DNA of 64,000 bases, taken from the NCBI GenBank assembly GCA_905479105.1, contig CAJQLE010000004.1, forward strand, positions 620,001 through 684,000. Direction: 5' to 3'. A program made the position numbers and the translations under genes. The notes under the pieces were generated by a model. The model was not told the DNA's origin. It saw only the letters and a list, made by a program, of their open reading frames with translations, and searched no databases. The DNA comes from an uncultured Flavobacteriales bacterium. GTDB lineage: Bacteria > Bacteroidota > Bacteroidia > Flavobacteriales_G > Salibacteraceae. This document shows, piece by piece, positions 16,147 through 22,879 of the stretch (the stretch's first letter is position 1; each line of letters begins with the position of its first letter).

Positions 16147-16992
16147 CTACTGAGGTTCAGGACCCAATTCAATATCCGAAATGATTCGAAGTTTGAATTT
16201 AGCGTTCTTCATATCCTTAGATTCCTTCTTGTCGTTATATAGTCTAACTGAGAAATCGCCAGTGATAAAGTTATAAGACTCGTAATCTTTAAGATTTGCT
16301 TCTACTTTAGAAATTCTGAAGTAACCAAAAGGTTGAAAAGTAGGCGGATTGTCTGACCTCCACTCTACACCGGCTGTATCGAGGTATGAGATAACCGCTC
16401 CTGGTTGAGCATCATTATTCCAAAGCGTATCTCCAATGGTGTTATTTCCAACTCGACCCCAACGGATAAAATCTTCACGAATAGATGGATTGTCAATGTA
16501 ATCTTGGATATCCCAAAATGCAAGAGTATCAGTTATGCTGAAAGGGAAATAAAGCGTTACAATATCCTCCTCAGCTTCGTCTATCTCAATCTGATCAACG
16601 GTAACGTTAGGATTAGCTTTATCAATAATTAGATCGCGGTATTTTTTGGTCACAAGTCTAGTGAAAGGAGCATAATGCCATCCAAATTTCGGAAAAGGAG
16701 GGAAAAGTTGAGCGGCAGATGAACCAGCCGTATCAAACACTTCTTCGTTTCGCACATCACCCACAAGATTCACATAATCGAAATCTTGCCACTGAGTGCT
16801 GTCATCCAACACTTCGTAAGTCATAGTGTCTGCTGCTTTCCCCCACGTGAACTGAAAATACAGGTCATTATCAATAATGTGTATTGATGGTTCTGGTGGC
16901 GGCACAGAAATATCTGGCAGGTTCGGAGTTTGATCTTTACAAGACCAAAACATCGATATACAGACAATAACTACAAACGTTTTTCTTAACAT
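16147..16992 (-). CDS. Lipoprotein, paralogue of the one at 22061
   Basis: 281 residues with a lipoprotein signal (MLRKTFVVIVCISMFWSC). No named domain is recognised. The C-terminal ~70 residues resemble the lipoprotein at 22061-22879: a Val-x-Trp strand, YFRI/YFRL, then GDFSVRLYND versus GEFAGRLYNG, and AKFKLRI versus AKFRARL. The two genes bracket the vitamin B12 operon. It lies 85 bases downstream of the propeller lipoprotein gene on the same strand, so it may be the last member of that operon. A role in corrinoid handling is only inferred from position. Confidence 0.7.
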   Translation of the reverse strand: MLRKTFVVIVCISMFWSCKDQTPNLPDISVPPPEPSIHIIDNDLYFQFTWGKAADTMTYEVLDDSTQWQDFDYVNLVGDVRNEEVFDTAGSSAAQLFPPFPKFGWHYAPFTRLVTKKYRDLIIDKANPNVTVDQIEIDEAEEDIVTLYFPFSITDTLAFWDIQDYIDNPSIREDFIRWGRVGNNTIGDTLWNNDAQPGAVISYLDTAGVEWRSDNPPTFQPFGYFRISKVEANLKDYESYNFITGDFSVRLYNDKKESKDMKNAKFKLRIISDIELGPEPQ

Positions 16993-17077: not shown

Positions 17078-18073
17078 TTACCTCAAAATTACCTGGGGAA
17101 TAAGACCTGTTTCTAGCTCTTGAATAAGTTGGGATGAAGCATCGTATCTCAACACCTTACCCCTTGATAAATAGTCAATTACATCACTAATGTAGATGCC
17201 AGATTCATCGACATAGAGGCTGTATGGAGTTTGGGCCGTATGGCTAAATTGACCCTCGTTTTGACTCCTTAGATTTATCATTTTAACCGTGTTATTGAGT
17301 AAAAAGTAGCCTACTGAATCGTATAAAGCGCTGCCAGAAATACGATTGTTGAATTCAGCCAACGTTTCCAGAGCTCCTGATTTAACGAAAGAGATCAATT
17401 TCGCTCCCTTTTTAGCATTGCCTGCAATCACTAATTTATGGTCTAAGCTGAATAAGTAAGATGGCTCGATACTCAGCTGAATTTCATCAATTTTCTCAAA
17501 ACTTAATGCGTCAATAATCAAAATGGAAGAATCTTTCATATTGGAGATATAGATCATATCGTCTATCAATACCATACGTTCTGTCCATTCGGGCGCTTGA
17601 ATTTGATTGGTTATGGAGTTGCTAACCAAATCTACCACGCTGAGAGCGCCACCTCCAAAATCGCTTACCAAAGCTTTTTTATCATTTAGCATGAGCATAT
17701 GACGTGGTGAGTTAAATCCTTCAATTATGGCTAGTTCTTCGAACGTTGAATCATTCAAGATCCGAATTAGACCTGAGTTATTGATTACTAAAAACAAGCT
17801 ATCGCCATGGTGAATAATAGACTGCAATACGTCACCTAACTGCTTATTATTTGTGCGTTTGTAAATGTCATTCTGAATGGTTTCGTCCTCCAAATTAAAA
17901 ACACTCAGCGATGCATTGTTGAATTGAAAGTTTCCTTCACAACCGATATAGATCAAATTTCCAGGAGTTATAGAAACCTCATCGCTATTCGATGGATATA
18001 CTGGGCCGAAGTATTCGTCTTTCTGACATGAATTCAGACAAATGATTAATATGATCGCTACTACCCTTTCCAC
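17078..18073 (-). CDS. BtuG-like beta-propeller surface lipoprotein (corrinoid capture)
   Basis: 331 residues with a lipoprotein signal (MERVVAIILIICLNSC). YncE/DUF5074-style propeller blades follow, e.g. NNASLSVFNLEDETIQND, DDMIYISNMKDSSILIIDA and DESGIYISDV. In Bacteroides, BtuG is a seven-bladed propeller lipoprotein that sits on the TonB receptor BtuB and binds B12 extremely tightly. This gene has the same architecture and follows the receptor gene with a 13-base overlap, in a cobalamin-riboswitch operon. The family match is from memory. Binding of B12 is inferred from architecture and context. Confidence 0.75.
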   Translation of the reverse strand: MERVVAIILIICLNSCQKDEYFGPVYPSNSDEVSITPGNLIYIGCEGNFQFNNASLSVFNLEDETIQNDIYKRTNNKQLGDVLQSIIHHGDSLFLVINNSGLIRILNDSTFEELAIIEGFNSPRHMLMLNDKKALVSDFGGGALSVVDLVSNSITNQIQAPEWTERMVLIDDMIYISNMKDSSILIIDALSFEKIDEIQLSIEPSYLFSLDHKLVIAGNAKKGAKLISFVKSGALETLAEFNNRISGSALYDSVGYFLLNNTVKMINLRSQNEGQFSHTAQTPYSLYVDESGIYISDVIDYLSRGKVLRYDASSQLIQELETGLIPQVILR

Positions 18074-19935
18074 TTCAATGCTATTTTTAGACTATAAAAC
18101 CTTCCAGGCATAGGCCTCCAAGGCATGTTTTGATATTGCCAATCAAACAAATTGGAGACACTTGCAGTGAAGTTGAGTGAAAAAGCACTGCTTAAAGTGA
18201 CGGAATACTTACCCGCTAATGATGACAGTTGATATGCCGGCATGTATGAAGACTCATCGTTAGATATAAATCGTTTGTCAAAATAGGAGTAGGTATATCT
18301 AAGCCCCAATTGACGGTATTGATAGTCTAAACTAATATTTGCCGTGTAATTAGGTATGAAGGAAAGTGCTTGTGTTTGGGTTTTTGAATTGCCGCCTTGC
18401 GCATTTATGTATTGCCCATTTCCTCCAATGATAAATCTATGTGCTCCAATTTTAACTTTCTGCTGGAATAATAAATCTATGCCTTTCGATATGGAATAGT
18501 TGACGTTTGTTGGAACGAATACTCCCCCATCAGGCAACCATCTTATCCGATCTGAATACTCTCCATTGAAGAAAGCTACCTTCAATTCCTGATATGCTGT
18601 TTGATAATTCAATCCAAACTCCAGAAGCTGACCTCGCTCTGGCTGCAATGAATCATTTCCACCGGGTGACCAATACATTTCATTTAATGTAGGAAAGCGA
18701 GCACTCTGAGAGGCCGATACAAAGGCGGAGATCGGAATCTTAGATATGGGCTTGATGGACACCCCACCAAACGGTAGTAGTGCGTTCTTTTCGTTGAATG
18801 ACGTATACCGCGAACCCAGCTCAAACACCACGCTTTCTTTCAAAATTGAATATTCAGCTTTGAGCATTGAACCCAATGTGTAGTTTGTTTTCTTCTCACT
18901 GTAGTTTTTGGATACCGCTTGGGTATAAGAATGATTCACTTGGCCCTTAATTTCTAACACCTTTAGAGGTTTGATGTGCGCATCAACTTGATTTTGAACC
19001 GTTTGATAGTCGTTAGAGTTGTCAATACTCAGCGCAGTATCGGAATACGCATTGACATTGTCTTCATACATTGCTCGGTAGCTCAAGCCAAATGTGTTGC
19101 TTGGAGTATAATCTATAATCCCCATTGATCTGTGCACAACATCCTCTTGCTGAGCAATAGATGGACTTGTGTTTATGGCACTTGGAATTGATCTTGAGGT
19201 TTCATTGTACCAATAAATTGCCGTTACATTGATTGACTTCGAAATTGGAATACTCAACATCGGAGAAATATTTCTTCGAGTGAAGGATGCGTTATTCATC
19301 ACTTCACTGGAATAAGGAGTTTGACTTATATCCTGATATAGAAAACGATTAGAGAGCGTTTGAATATCTGACATCAATCCAAAAGCAAGAGACTTGTTGC
19401 GGAACTTGAAATTTTTATTGACTCGTGCCGTGGTGGAGTAGTTACCAAATGAAGACACCAGCTGGCCTATCTCTATGAAGTCACTTTTGTAATCCGGGCT
19501 TTGTTCAAGTAATACCCCTCCACCCAAGCCACCAGAGGAATACAAATTCATGGAATTACCTGTAATTATAGAAATATCGGAGAACTGTGAAACCGGAATG
19601 GTGGAGAAATCTATGGTTCCGAGCATCGGTGAATTAATCTTCAAACCATTCCAAAGCAATTGGGTGTGGTTTGCGTCTCCGCCTCTAAATGTTGGCGTTG
19701 ACAATAAGCCTGGACCTAAGGTTTTGAAATTTATACTAGACCTTGAGCTTAGAAATGCTAGTAAGTCTAGTTCATTTATCTGCTCTTGTGCGATTGAATC
19801 AAAATGGATGTTGAAAGATGACTGAAGTCCAACTTGATTGGAATCCAAAACGTCAACAGGTCTAAGTTCTAGTGTTTTCTGGGAAAATAGATGTCCTAGA
19901 CAGAAAGTAAAAAGGAAGGTCCATTTCCATTTCAT
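18061..19935 (-). CDS. btuB: TonB-dependent receptor, BtuB-like (vitamin B12 uptake)
   Basis: 624 residues, the compact size of BtuB rather than of SusC. After a signal peptide (ending GHLFSQ), a plug domain of ~110 residues shows typical motifs: STPTFRGGDANHTQLLWNGL, IPVSQFSDISIITG and GLGGGVLLEQ. The rest is a 22-strand barrel pattern ending in a strand terminated by aromatic/hydrophobic residues (RFYSLKIALKWKG). It would carry corrinoids across the outer membrane using TonB energy; TonB is not in the window. It starts one base after the preceding gene's stop and overlaps the BtuG-like gene by 13 bases. B12 specificity comes from the upstream riboswitch. Confidence 0.85.
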   Translation of the reverse strand: MKWKWTFLFTFCLGHLFSQKTLELRPVDVLDSNQVGLQSSFNIHFDSIAQEQINELDLLAFLSSRSSINFKTLGPGLLSTPTFRGGDANHTQLLWNGLKINSPMLGTIDFSTIPVSQFSDISIITGNSMNLYSSGGLGGGVLLEQSPDYKSDFIEIGQLVSSFGNYSTTARVNKNFKFRNKSLAFGLMSDIQTLSNRFLYQDISQTPYSSEVMNNASFTRRNISPMLSIPISKSINVTAIYWYNETSRSIPSAINTSPSIAQQEDVVHRSMGIIDYTPSNTFGLSYRAMYEDNVNAYSDTALSIDNSNDYQTVQNQVDAHIKPLKVLEIKGQVNHSYTQAVSKNYSEKKTNYTLGSMLKAEYSILKESVVFELGSRYTSFNEKNALLPFGGVSIKPISKIPISAFVSASQSARFPTLNEMYWSPGGNDSLQPERGQLLEFGLNYQTAYQELKVAFFNGEYSDRIRWLPDGGVFVPTNVNYSISKGIDLLFQQKVKIGAHRFIIGGNGQYINAQGGNSKTQTQALSFIPNYTANISLDYQYRQLGLRYTYSYFDKRFISNDESSYMPAYQLSSLAGKYSVTLSSAFSLNFTASVSNLFDWQYQNMPWRPMPGRFYSLKIALKWKG

Positions 19936-19936
19936 G

Positions 19937-20815
19937 CTATCTCAACTTCACTCCTTTTGAATCAGCGCTTATCCAAACACCTCGGTAAGAATCGATCCGA
20001 TCCGCAGATATGACTTTACCATTGAGGTCATACTTTACATGAGAAGTTAAATTTCGTTCGTTTATCTCATTCACATTCAACGGGATTCGACTATTGATGA
20101 CACCCACGGCATCAAGGTCAAAACCACCTTGAGGAAAATTACTGGGCCATGGATCATTAATGATTGTTCCATTAAAATCAACCGAAGCAAACGATGGATC
20201 TATATTTCCGATAACGTCAATTACTTTGATGTGTGTCACATTCTGCTTATCAAGCGCAGATGTATCTGGCAGATCAGCTAAATCGAAAGGTGTTCCGAAG
20301 TTTACAATATGCTTTCCCGCTAAATTATGGAAGAAGGTTGCGTCTGAATTATCGAAAGATTCCTTTTGAGATAGAGTTTGTTCTTCACTTATAGCTGGAA
20401 ATCGAAAGAAATTAACTCCATCAGAACTCACCTCAACAAAGGCAAGCTCAAGAAATGCATCACTCCCACTCCCAAATCCATTTTCAAACACAGCAAAATC
20501 ATAGCCAGGCCCATCGTAAAAAGGCGCAGCAAACGTGAGTGTAGCGCTTCCGCCATCCCCCAAACTTACTGTCAAAGGAGCGTCTGGCTTGCCTATCGCA
20601 TATAATGCTGAACCACTACTTGCATAACCAGAATCAGGTAGGTTTATTTGTCGTAATCCCCGTTCAACTTCACATGATATAGCCCAATTTCTAAAAGCCG
20701 CATAATCCTTAGGTATAGCGTTCGAACCAGGCTCTCCTGCTTGAGGACTAAAGCTGCCTTGGCCAGCACACTGCACTGAAATTAAGATTGATGCTATGAT
20801 GACTTGCGTTCTCAA
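19937..20815 (-). CDS. Secreted accessory protein of the B12 operon
   Basis: 292 residues with a signal peptide ending near QCAGQ. The central part has strands such as VSLGDGGSATLTFAAPFYDG and YDFAVFENGFGSGSDAFLELAF. I associate these with a family found beside TonB receptors for cobalamin in Bacteroidota, but I have no name for it. The last ~45 residues (KYDLNGKVIS, RGVWISADSKGVKLR) look like a short T9SS-type tail. It overlaps the upstream DUF4465 gene by 4 bases (ATGA) and is 1 base from the receptor gene. An extracellular, corrinoid-related role is inferred from the operon only. Confidence 0.7.
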   Translation of the reverse strand: MRTQVIIASILISVQCAGQGSFSPQAGEPGSNAIPKDYAAFRNWAISCEVERGLRQINLPDSGYASSGSALYAIGKPDAPLTVSLGDGGSATLTFAAPFYDGPGYDFAVFENGFGSGSDAFLELAFVEVSSDGVNFFRFPAISEEQTLSQKESFDNSDATFFHNLAGKHIVNFGTPFDLADLPDTSALDKQNVTHIKVIDVIGNIDPSFASVDFNGTIINDPWPSNFPQGGFDLDAVGVINSRIPLNVNEINERNLTSHVKYDLNGKVISADRIDSYRGVWISADSKGVKLR

Positions 20816-21756
20816 TGAACTAATTTTTTAACCGAAACGCCTTCTGCTGTTTCACGACTTACAATGAGCAATTGATTCTTAGGCTCAATATTCAAGCTAG
20901 ACCCAGAAAAATCTTGAAATGAATGAAGCAGTCTTCCTTGGATGTCATAAACGGAATAGGTGGCTTTTGAACGATCGTTTAGTTGAATGCTATTTCCGTC
21001 TGAATAGGCTTCAAACTCATTTCTGTCGACATCATTTAAACCACCTACCAGGCTGTATTCAATATTATCGAGAGAGAAAAATAACGGTGTGTTAATCCCG
21101 AAAGCTCCAGTATCACTGCTAAACAGCTTGAATGAAATCTCAGTGGAATTTTTAGGTAGAGCTGAGAGGTCTACTTCAGTCCAATCATTAATAATGTAGT
21201 CCTGCACGCTGTCTTCAAATCTATAGTCTGCTAGGTAGAAATCGATGCTGTCTATTTCCAAATTAGATGTACCATAGATTCTCACGAAGAAATAATCGGG
21301 GTCATCACCTGTTGAACCACCAAATTTTTTCGCAAAAGCATCTCCATTGAGAATGCTCTTGTAAGCATAGGTTGTGTTAGTAATCTCCAAATTGTGCCAA
21401 ACTAAATCTCGATCGAATACTGTGAGCGTACTCATAGTAATGAGTCCAGACCCAAGATTGCCTGTCGTATAAATATTTTCGCTGTTAACATCTGAAGAAT
21501 ACGCGCTGTATAGATTCATAAAGCTTCCATCTGAAGTGTCACGCATGGTACTCATGGCAAAGCCCGATGCCCAATAATTAAAAGAAGTATCGTACAGCAC
21601 AGGGAATTCAAAATCACCCGATGTGAATATCAAAGTACTATCACGTCCATCGCTAAAGGTGTCTTGCGCGATGGAGATATTTTCGAAGTCTATGGATTGA
21701 GAAAAAGACAAGGTAGCGCTCGTTAAGGCTGCTGCAAGAAGTAAAATATGTTTCAT
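20812..21756 (-). CDS. DUF4465 secreted protein with T9SS tail, first gene of B12 operon
   Basis: 314 residues with a signal peptide (MKHILLLAAALTSATLSFSQ). The DUF4465 domain is recognised by features such as FNYWASGFAMSTMRDTSDGS, NLYSAYSSD and DPDYFFVRIYG, a jelly-roll-like pattern. A C-terminal segment (STYSVYDIQGRLLHSF, then LIVSRETAEGVSVKKLV) fits a T9SS sorting tail. DUF4465 genes recur in Bacteroidota corrinoid loci, from memory. It is the first gene after the cobalamin riboswitch, with a leader of about 120 bases between them. A direct role in B12 binding is possible but not shown by the sequence. Confidence 0.75.
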   Translation of the reverse strand: MKHILLLAAALTSATLSFSQSIDFENISIAQDTFSDGRDSTLIFTSGDFEFPVLYDTSFNYWASGFAMSTMRDTSDGSFMNLYSAYSSDVNSENIYTTGNLGSGLITMSTLTVFDRDLVWHNLEITNTTYAYKSILNGDAFAKKFGGSTGDDPDYFFVRIYGTSNLEIDSIDFYLADYRFEDSVQDYIINDWTEVDLSALPKNSTEISFKLFSSDTGAFGINTPLFFSLDNIEYSLVGGLNDVDRNEFEAYSDGNSIQLNDRSKATYSVYDIQGRLLHSFQDFSGSSLNIEPKNQLLIVSRETAEGVSVKKLVH

Positions 21757-21875
21757 ATGTGTTTTAATTCATTACGATTAAACACGAGAAACGATCAGTA
21801 AAAAATTGATGGAAGTGACGCACGAAGCATAACTCCGATCAGCTCTTATTCCCGAAAGCTTTTCGTTATGTACTT

Positions 21876-22031
21876 CTGGCAGGTCTTCTGACTTGTTTCA
21901 GTTTTCGCGCCTTCCCATCTTTCGACAGTGGCTTTGTTAAGCGAAAACCCTTAGCGAAACTTACAGCTGCGGGGACAGTTCCGGATTTACACCGGATTCC
22001 CTTTTAATCTTGACAGGGTCAAGAACCAAAA
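21876..22031 (-). promoter_or_regulatory. Cobalamin (adenosylcobalamin) riboswitch
   Basis: Read on the minus strand, all hallmark blocks occur in order: AAAAGGGAATCCGGTG, AAATCCGGAACTGTCCCCGC, AGCTGTAAG, the B12-box element GCCACTG, GGGAAGGCG, and the closing GTCAGAAGACCTGCC. It lies about 120 bases before the first gene of the receptor operon, so bound corrinoid should repress that operon. The segment between riboswitch and gene holds a small CGAAAAGCTTTCG hairpin. No classical terminator is evident, so translational control or a missed attenuator is possible. Confidence 0.95.
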
Positions 22032-22060: not shown

Positions 22061-22879
22061 TTAGAAATTCGATCTTGGCACTAATCGTGCTCGGAATTTA
22101 GCTTCTGTAATTGGAAGCTCTCTAGAGCCATTGTAAAGTCTACCAGCAAACTCGCCTTCTATGATGTGCATAGCTAGCGTGTCTAGAGTATCTTGAGAAA
22201 CAATTCGAGGATAGAATTCATTCAGTCTGAAATATGAATCTACCAATTGACCGCTTCCAGTTTTGGTAGTCCAAACATCTCTGTTTTCATCAACGTACTT
22301 CAATTGGACTCCCCTTCTGCCATACTCTGTGTTGGTGAATGGGATGGCAGTGCCATAATCAGCAATTCCTAAATAGGTAACAATGTTATCATTAAAAGGA
22401 AGATTAGCTGGAATAGTATCGTATTCCTCAATGCAATCAAAAAATGAAATCTCAATCCTTTCATTAGGAATTTCAGGACGTAAGAATCGTGTGGTGTGAT
22501 CAAACCAAATATTATCTGAGTCATTGATGCATGGAAGCATCTCTGCTAGATTAGTTCTTGGAATGTTTCGATAGATATTCTCACTGTAAGCTGGCCATAG
22601 TGACCAAGTAGTTGCGTTTGGATCGTTTATATCTAAGCGTGTAATTGTATCCCATTTTGACCTTTTTCCATCTTCCCAAACCCTGAATTGTCCTTCAAAT
22701 TTACCGTAGAAGAAGAAGTCGGCTGTTGGAACATTGAAGGTGTCAAATGAAAGTGGATCATTAGGGTCAGGATAACCCACAGCGCCCAAAGTAGTGCCTC
22801 TTTCACAAGAAGTTGAGAACATGCCAGCAATAAAAAATGCAGCAACGATAAATGAAATTCTATTATTCATACGATTCAT
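22061..22879 (-). CDS. Lipoprotein, paralogue of the one at 16147
   Basis: 272 residues; the alternative ATG at 22870 shortens it by three. It has a lipoprotein signal (ISFIVAAFFIAGMFSTSC). No named domain is recognised. The C-terminus shares spaced residues with the lipoprotein at 16147-16992: DVW, DSYFRLNEF, IIEGEFAGRLYNG, ITEAKFRARLV. It lies upstream of the cobalamin riboswitch on the same strand, so it is not under its control. Its stop is about 30 bases before the riboswitch. Confidence 0.7.
   Translation of the reverse strand: MNRMNNRISFIVAAFFIAGMFSTSCERGTTLGAVGYPDPNDPLSFDTFNVPTADFFFYGKFEGQFRVWEDGKRSKWDTITRLDINDPNATTWSLWPAYSENIYRNIPRTNLAEMLPCINDSDNIWFDHTTRFLRPEIPNERIEISFFDCIEEYDTIPANLPFNDNIVTYLGIADYGTAIPFTNTEYGRRGVQLKYVDENRDVWTTKTGSGQLVDSYFRLNEFYPRIVSQDTLDTLAMHIIEGEFAGRLYNGSRELPITEAKFRARLVPRSNF

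Follow-up and report, generated by a model that had tools for sequence, protein, structure and literature searches.

A single cobalamin riboswitch in the genome of an uncultured member of the Salibacteraceae precedes four tightly packed genes that encode two secreted proteins (J and protein B), a TonB-dependent receptor and a propeller lipoprotein. We read this locus, with a probability of about 80%, as a B12-repressed operon for the capture of corrinoids at the outer membrane. The B12 capture locus, from a free-living, non-gut relative of gut Bacteroides, is real and of a familiar type; what makes it interesting is protein B and the gap at the inner membrane rather than the occurrence of BtuG outside the gut. 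Protein B is the new part of the operon and belongs to a widespread family that has neither a name nor an annotation and that may be a secreted counterpart of BtuH, a B12-binding protein of gut bacteria; the other three genes are known territory.

A compact operon behind a complete riboswitch

The operon lies in a stretch of 64,000 nucleotides (the window), and its features are given in Table 1. The aptamer passes the gathering score of RF00174 (31.5 bits) over its full length and is the only cobalamin riboswitch in the genome (2.79 Mb, 99.85% complete). The genes for J and protein B overlap by 4 bases (TTGA), protein B and the receptor are separated by 1 base, and the receptor and propeller genes overlap by 13 bases. 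A first-pass annotation of this DNA had described a complete cobalamin riboswitch upstream of four genes with this spacing, and we found both the riboswitch and the spacing exactly as described. The interval that it gave, 17078–22031, is right for the four open reading frames, but its upper bound cuts 14 bases from the riboswitch. This arrangement is not a chance one: throughout the genus, and in numerous further genera of the order, riboswitch, J, protein B, receptor and propeller follow one another in the same sequence. We found no clear or strong expression platform downstream of the riboswitch (downstream fold z −0.9). Two lipoprotein genes (window positions 16147–16992 and 22061–22879) border the operon in most genomes of the genus, and their products have a C-terminal stretch in common (26% identity over 82 aa).

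Table 1. Features of the corrinoid capture operon, listed from the riboswitch downstream (window positions).
Feature	Position	Strand	Description
Cobalamin riboswitch aptamer (RF00174)	22045–21861	minus	124.3 bits, E 9e-31; model positions 1–189, full-length
J	20812..21756	minus	DUF4465 / BtuJ-type protein, 314 aa; signal peptide, degenerate C-terminal tail
Protein B	19937..20815	minus	292 aa, TTG start; secreted; predicted BtuH-type (discoidin-like) B12-binding domain
Protein B, conserved core	20081..20758	minus	residues 20–245, from alignments of 62 and 45 relatives
BtuB-like TonB-dependent receptor	18061..19935	minus	624 aa; plug and barrel (PF07715, PF00593)
BtuG-like propeller lipoprotein	17078..18073	minus	331 aa, GTG start; seven-bladed; DUF5074 E 1.9e-9

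Receptor and propeller are homologous to BtuB and BtuG

The best PDB sequence matches of the propeller are BtuG proteins (8p97_B, E 2.8e-29), and those of the receptor are the Bacteroides thetaiotaomicron BtuB proteins that pair with BtuG (8p97_A, E 4.9e-43; 8bmx_C, E 2.5e-40). The BtuB–BtuG pairing proposed in the first-pass annotation is thus borne out. The receptor also matched the B12 receptor model TonB-B12 (TIGR01779, PRK10641) at E 7.8e-21; its 74.3 bits fall below the equivalog cut-off of 599.7 bits. We built a structure model of the propeller from 32 relatives (pLDDT 92) and compared it with BtuG2, a comparison that the annotation had proposed for 17078–18073 and named among those that could refute its reading. 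The model superposes on BtuG2 (8bn0) with a Z score of 39.4 at 2.0 Å over 306 residues, whereas the best propeller outside the BtuG group reached Z 29.5, ten Z units lower.

The N terminus of the propeller, LNSC-QKDEY, combines a lipobox with a surface export signal, and its Cys16 is invariant in the 32 relatives. The residues C-Q-K-D-E-Y fit the rule C-X-K-(D/E)2-X for surface export in Bacteroidota (PMC5080379), marking the propeller as a predicted surface lipoprotein; together with the RF00174 match, this agrees with the earlier proposal of a B12-controlled operon with a propeller at the cell surface. The propeller gene adjoins the BtuB-like gene, and this neighbourhood is kept in relatives. 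A tblastn impression that the propeller was absent from the two closest relatives was rejected when inspection and an HMM search found it in them.

In this operon, as in the BtuB2–BtuG2 and BtuB3–BtuG3 systems of B. thetaiotaomicron (PMC10404256, PMC6143338), a cobalamin riboswitch precedes neighbouring genes for a TonB receptor and a propeller lipoprotein of the cell surface. The propeller fold is alike, although the propeller identity is only 27%. The operon differs from these systems in its shorter receptor, in being a single locus in a genome with no BtuC anywhere, and in its partner proteins, which in most relatives are of the type IX secretion system (T9SS) type and not lipid-anchored. 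The propeller would bind corrinoid, as BtuG proteins do at femto- to picomolar concentrations.

J belongs to a B12-binding family

J is a member of PF14717 (DUF4465; E 5.9e-37, 128.2 bits against a gathering score of 25), and its PDB matches include a DUF4465 structure in complex with B12 (9hmu, E 9e-15) and BtuJ1 (9fct, E 8.5e-9). What the first-pass annotation missed is that DUF4465 is itself a B12-binding family (BtuJ). Papers of 2025–2026 report B12 binding by this family, non-gut members included, and by eight divergent members. Across the FCB group, DUF4465 genes have been described together with those for TonB receptors and PF16819 propellers, and a Fluviicola member binds B12 (PMC13398666). 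Because non-gut members, TonB receptors and PF16819 propellers are already covered by this work, the novelty that the annotation saw in a BtuG system outside the gut lineage does not hold.

As in BtuJ1 and BtuJ2 (PMC12751083, PMC13398666), the DUF4465 domain comes first in a riboswitch operon. J differs from these proteins in its HI loop and in not being a lipoprotein. It keeps the DE-helix motif NTTYAY, but its HI loop, NTPLFF, has Phe in place of the B12-binding Tyr of the published NTPxY motif. We dropped the interpretation of this change as a loss of function, since it is common in relatives: among 47 loops from 44 J relatives, 22 have Phe and 25 have Tyr. Because of the Tyr-to-Phe change, we place J in DUF4465, noting its altered motif, and do not count it as a proven BtuJ; the aromatic character is kept and Phe is common in the group. 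Its family membership suggests that J may bind B12.

Loci that lack DUF4465 often have another T9SS-tailed protein in its position behind the riboswitch: in 15 loci this protein is propeller-like, and in 9 it is a repeat protein with a W-GEG-NEV motif. Such replacements were seen at L043, L059, L095, L100, L103, L104, L126 and others, and at L087, L094, L114, L120, L134 and L136.

Possible type IX secretion of J and protein B

The genome encodes a T9SS translocon (SprA, TIGR04189, 2511 bits) and contains 105 matches to type A tails. Among the other genera, most have versions of J and protein B that end in a complete T9SS type A domain, and across the DUF4465 family the T9SS domain IPR026444 was reported in 229 of 824 proteins (PMC12751083). 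Within the genus, the J of one relative (L034) passes TIGR04183 at 24.6 bits. The tails in the window were checked against TIGR04183 and PF18962: J scored 13.3 bits, below the TIGR04183 cut-off of 23, and protein B gave no match. The annotation had called both tails T9SS-like, which agrees with the complete tails of relatives, SprA and the 105 tails of the genome, but the window's own tails fall below curated cut-offs. As the tails of relatives pass and those of the window's J and protein B fail, T9SS export has support at the level of the family but is no more than plausible in this species.

It is accordingly a serious possibility, if not the one we favour, that in this species the tails are relics and that J and protein B are periplasmic or released otherwise. 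The low score of J and the lack of a match for protein B speak for it, and the tail of protein B is short and of low confidence in its model. Against this stand the passing tail of the genus-mate J, the complete tails in most relatives of other genera, the translocon with its 105 type A tails, and YDxxGxxx-like remnants that sequence inspection revealed in both window tails. J and protein B of this species may still be T9SS cargo.

Protein B is linked to B12 genes across Bacteroidia

The core of protein B had no Pfam or NCBIfam match over cut-off and no PDB match in sequence and profile searches. Searched alone or as a profile against these three collections, protein B returned only T9SS tails or sub-threshold matches to LIC_13355, which we rejected. 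The protein is present in 34 of the 42 genomes of the order, nearly always as a single copy, and a GTDB scan yielded at least 494 confirmed relatives, among them proteins from Flavobacterium, Aequorivita, Mariniflexile, Chitinophagales and Bacteroidales.

From these relatives we took 80 loci, picked by similarity, and read their neighbourhoods. A cobalamin B12-box motif lies near 56 of them and Rfam identified a riboswitch in nine more, giving 65 of 80; all seven motif matches that were checked by Rfam were confirmed. Since similarity had guided the choice of this set, we counted again in 197 Bacteroidia genomes sampled evenly across the class, about a third of which (66) encode a full-length protein B. 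We read 62 of these loci with their flanks and found a cobalamin riboswitch at 42, and either a riboswitch or a btuB-, btuG- or btuJ-like gene at 49, leaving 13 without any B12 feature. By chance, about 1% of random 16 kb stretches would contain a cobalamin riboswitch (one per 2.8 Mb here). Protein B is therefore linked throughout Bacteroidia to cobalamin riboswitches and btu genes. In five loci (L068, L071, L076, L089 and L144) the riboswitch lies directly upstream of protein B with no other btu gene, and in two (L044 and L124) sequence inspection showed CobT- and CobS-like genes next to it.

Two further associations were noted. At L289, the riboswitch and protein B are closely preceded by a gene that, as judged by sequence inspection, encodes a PduO-like cob(I)alamin adenosyltransferase. 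A DUF71/Diphthami_syn_2 (PF01902) gene lies in or beside the protein B operon at L052, L056, L075, L093, L108, L118 and L132; this placement agrees with the literature, in which some members of the family have been predicted to act in B12 salvage.

The modelled fold of protein B resembles the B12-binding domain of BtuH

A model of protein B built from 62 sequences (pLDDT 90) found its best fold match, first of 988 chains, in the B12-binding domain of BtuH2 (7biz, residues 318–592; Z 12.3, 3.3 Å, 158 residues), spanning protein B residues 42–241. The H domain of BtuG1 came second (Z 11.3), followed by sugar-binding CBM32 domains (Z 9.9), which leaves BtuH2 a margin of 2.4 Z over CBM32. The core of the family carries a PxAGQ-type loop and the motifs SLGDGG, DFAVFENGF and GGFDLDAVGV. 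Aligned by hhalign with BtuH (E 0.005, at a probability of only 7%), SLGDGG...DFAVFENGF falls on SLGGFGG...DFSIQGNAF; among the BtuH homologues used for comparison, one was confirmed against 7biz at E 1.3e-206. In BtuH2, Asn399 and Phe401 (phosphate and lower-ligand contacts) and Gln333 contact B12 (PMC8941943). In the hhalign register and the 7biz alignment, Asn399 corresponds to N112 of protein B, invariant in 62 of 62 sequences, and Phe401 to F114, conserved in 54 of 62. By eye, Gln333 (PAPGQ) falls in the PxAGQ-type column, which holds Q in 25 and E in 10 of the 62. Additionally, a BtuH profile found one bona fide protein B (E 1.3e-3, in two colinear segments), and the BtuH and protein B profiles both match the same repeat proteins in family f5. 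Homology of protein B to BtuH is thus probable, resting on the fold and a weak profile match.

Protein B and the BtuH2 C-terminal domain (PMC8941943) are also alike in operon context and share an SLG.GG ... DF.I..N.F motif with an invariant Asn. They differ in that protein B has a plain signal peptide, no lipid anchor and no PKD domains, is shorter than the BtuH domain of about 275 residues, ends in a T9SS tail in most relatives, and occurs outside Bacteroidaceae, with a sequence similarity near the detection limit. Since its domain stands alone behind an ordinary signal peptide, with neither PKD domains nor a lipid anchor, we call protein B BtuH-type and not BtuH. The papers naming BtuH that a literature search returned concern gut strains.

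Genomes of family f5 carry at least 14 copies of a domain related to both protein B and BtuH, many of them in large proteins that occur in multiple copies and show no obvious connection to B12 (L198, L210, L213, L246 and L247; genomes G043 and G121, and also G087, G149, G176 and G199).

The fold ranking would also allow protein B to be a CBM32- or discoidin-like surface or adhesion domain that is co-regulated with B12 genes, which we think less likely than corrinoid binding. CBM32 domains do follow BtuH in the ranking, at Z 9.9 and below, but the first and second of the 988 chains aligned are both B12-binding H domains. The multi-copy f5 proteins, with no known B12 link, would suit an adhesion role, as would a modest similarity to AlyQ, an alginate lyase with a CBM32 domain, that the BtuH authors reported (PMC8941943). 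Against this reading, protein B is in several loci the sole gene recognised after a cobalamin riboswitch, and it adjoins CobT- and CobS-like or PduO-like genes in others. Nor do protein B and BtuH co-occur: strong BtuH matches are found in 4 of the 197 genomes, all from one family, and none of the four has protein B. The most likely role of protein B is that of a compact corrinoid binder of the BtuH type, a reading we hold with fair but limited confidence.

B12 use and the inner-membrane step

Three predicted consumers of B12 are encoded in the genome: methylmalonyl-CoA mutase (PF01642) and, as judged by sequence inspection, an IcmF-like mutase and a MerR-type regulator with a B12-binding domain. 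The gene for this regulator (L147; G000:C1:304476-304709) lies beside a phytoene-desaturase-like (carotenoid) gene, an arrangement that recalls the CarH/LitR-type B12 light sensors.

We found no FecCD/BtuC permease in this genome and no strong match in 35 of the 42 genomes of the order, though most of these keep the B12 outer-membrane operon. The lone PF01497 protein of the genome is BtuF-like, but it has no signal peptide and no adjacent permease. A candidate for the inner-membrane importer is DUF6580 (PF20221), a membrane protein of about 185 aa encoded at G000:C5:146443-146955 (L328:1459-2127) and present as a single copy here and in 36 of the 42 genomes of the order. B12 operons of several other Bacteroidota include its gene, which immediately follows btuG, separates btuB from btuJ, or neighbours protein B (L111, L142, L178, L181, L274, L286, L290, L291 and L300). 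DUF6580 had no sequence match to BtuM or to any solved structure, and a literature search on it found nothing.

A broader proposal joins two claims: that protein B founds a Bacteroidia-wide class of secreted corrinoid binders, sharing an ancestor with BtuH and replacing it in non-gut lineages, and that DUF6580 is the inner-membrane B12 importer of many Bacteroidota without BtuCD. We offer this proposal only tentatively and think it less likely than not.

Discussion

The following working of the operon is proposed. When cobalamin is scarce, repression by the riboswitch would be lifted and the operon expressed. J and protein B would then capture corrinoid outside the cell, widening the catch, and BtuG, as a surface lipoprotein, would act as a lid on BtuB and pass the corrinoid on for TonB-driven import. 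The last steps are modelled on B. thetaiotaomicron, in which the BtuG lid and BtuB import corrinoid (PMC10404256). J and protein B would be sent out by the T9SS in most lineages, as against the lipid tether of gut Bacteroides, and the imported B12 would serve the two mutases and the MerR-type regulator. It is very improbable that the operon instead imports another tetrapyrrole or a cobalamin precursor and not B12 itself: heme-receptor models match the receptor barrel weakly and both cobalamin and cobinamide are ligands of BtuG (PMC10404256), but the control is by a cobalamin riboswitch and the best structural relatives of BtuB, BtuG and J are B12-specific.

The absence of BtuC from most of the order, with DUF6580 as a candidate in its place, touches a recognised gap, namely that many BtuB-bearing Gram-negative bacteria lack BtuCDF (PMC6072759). 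The surface machinery for B12 has been studied mainly in gut Bacteroides. Yet for most Bacteroidota of water and soil, B12 has to be scavenged. The protein B family, which is riboswitch-linked, present in about a third of the sampled Bacteroidia and without a name or Pfam model, is a candidate for a missing part of B12 handling, and the operon offers a testable case in which the same capture job may be done by type IX secreted proteins in place of lipoproteins.
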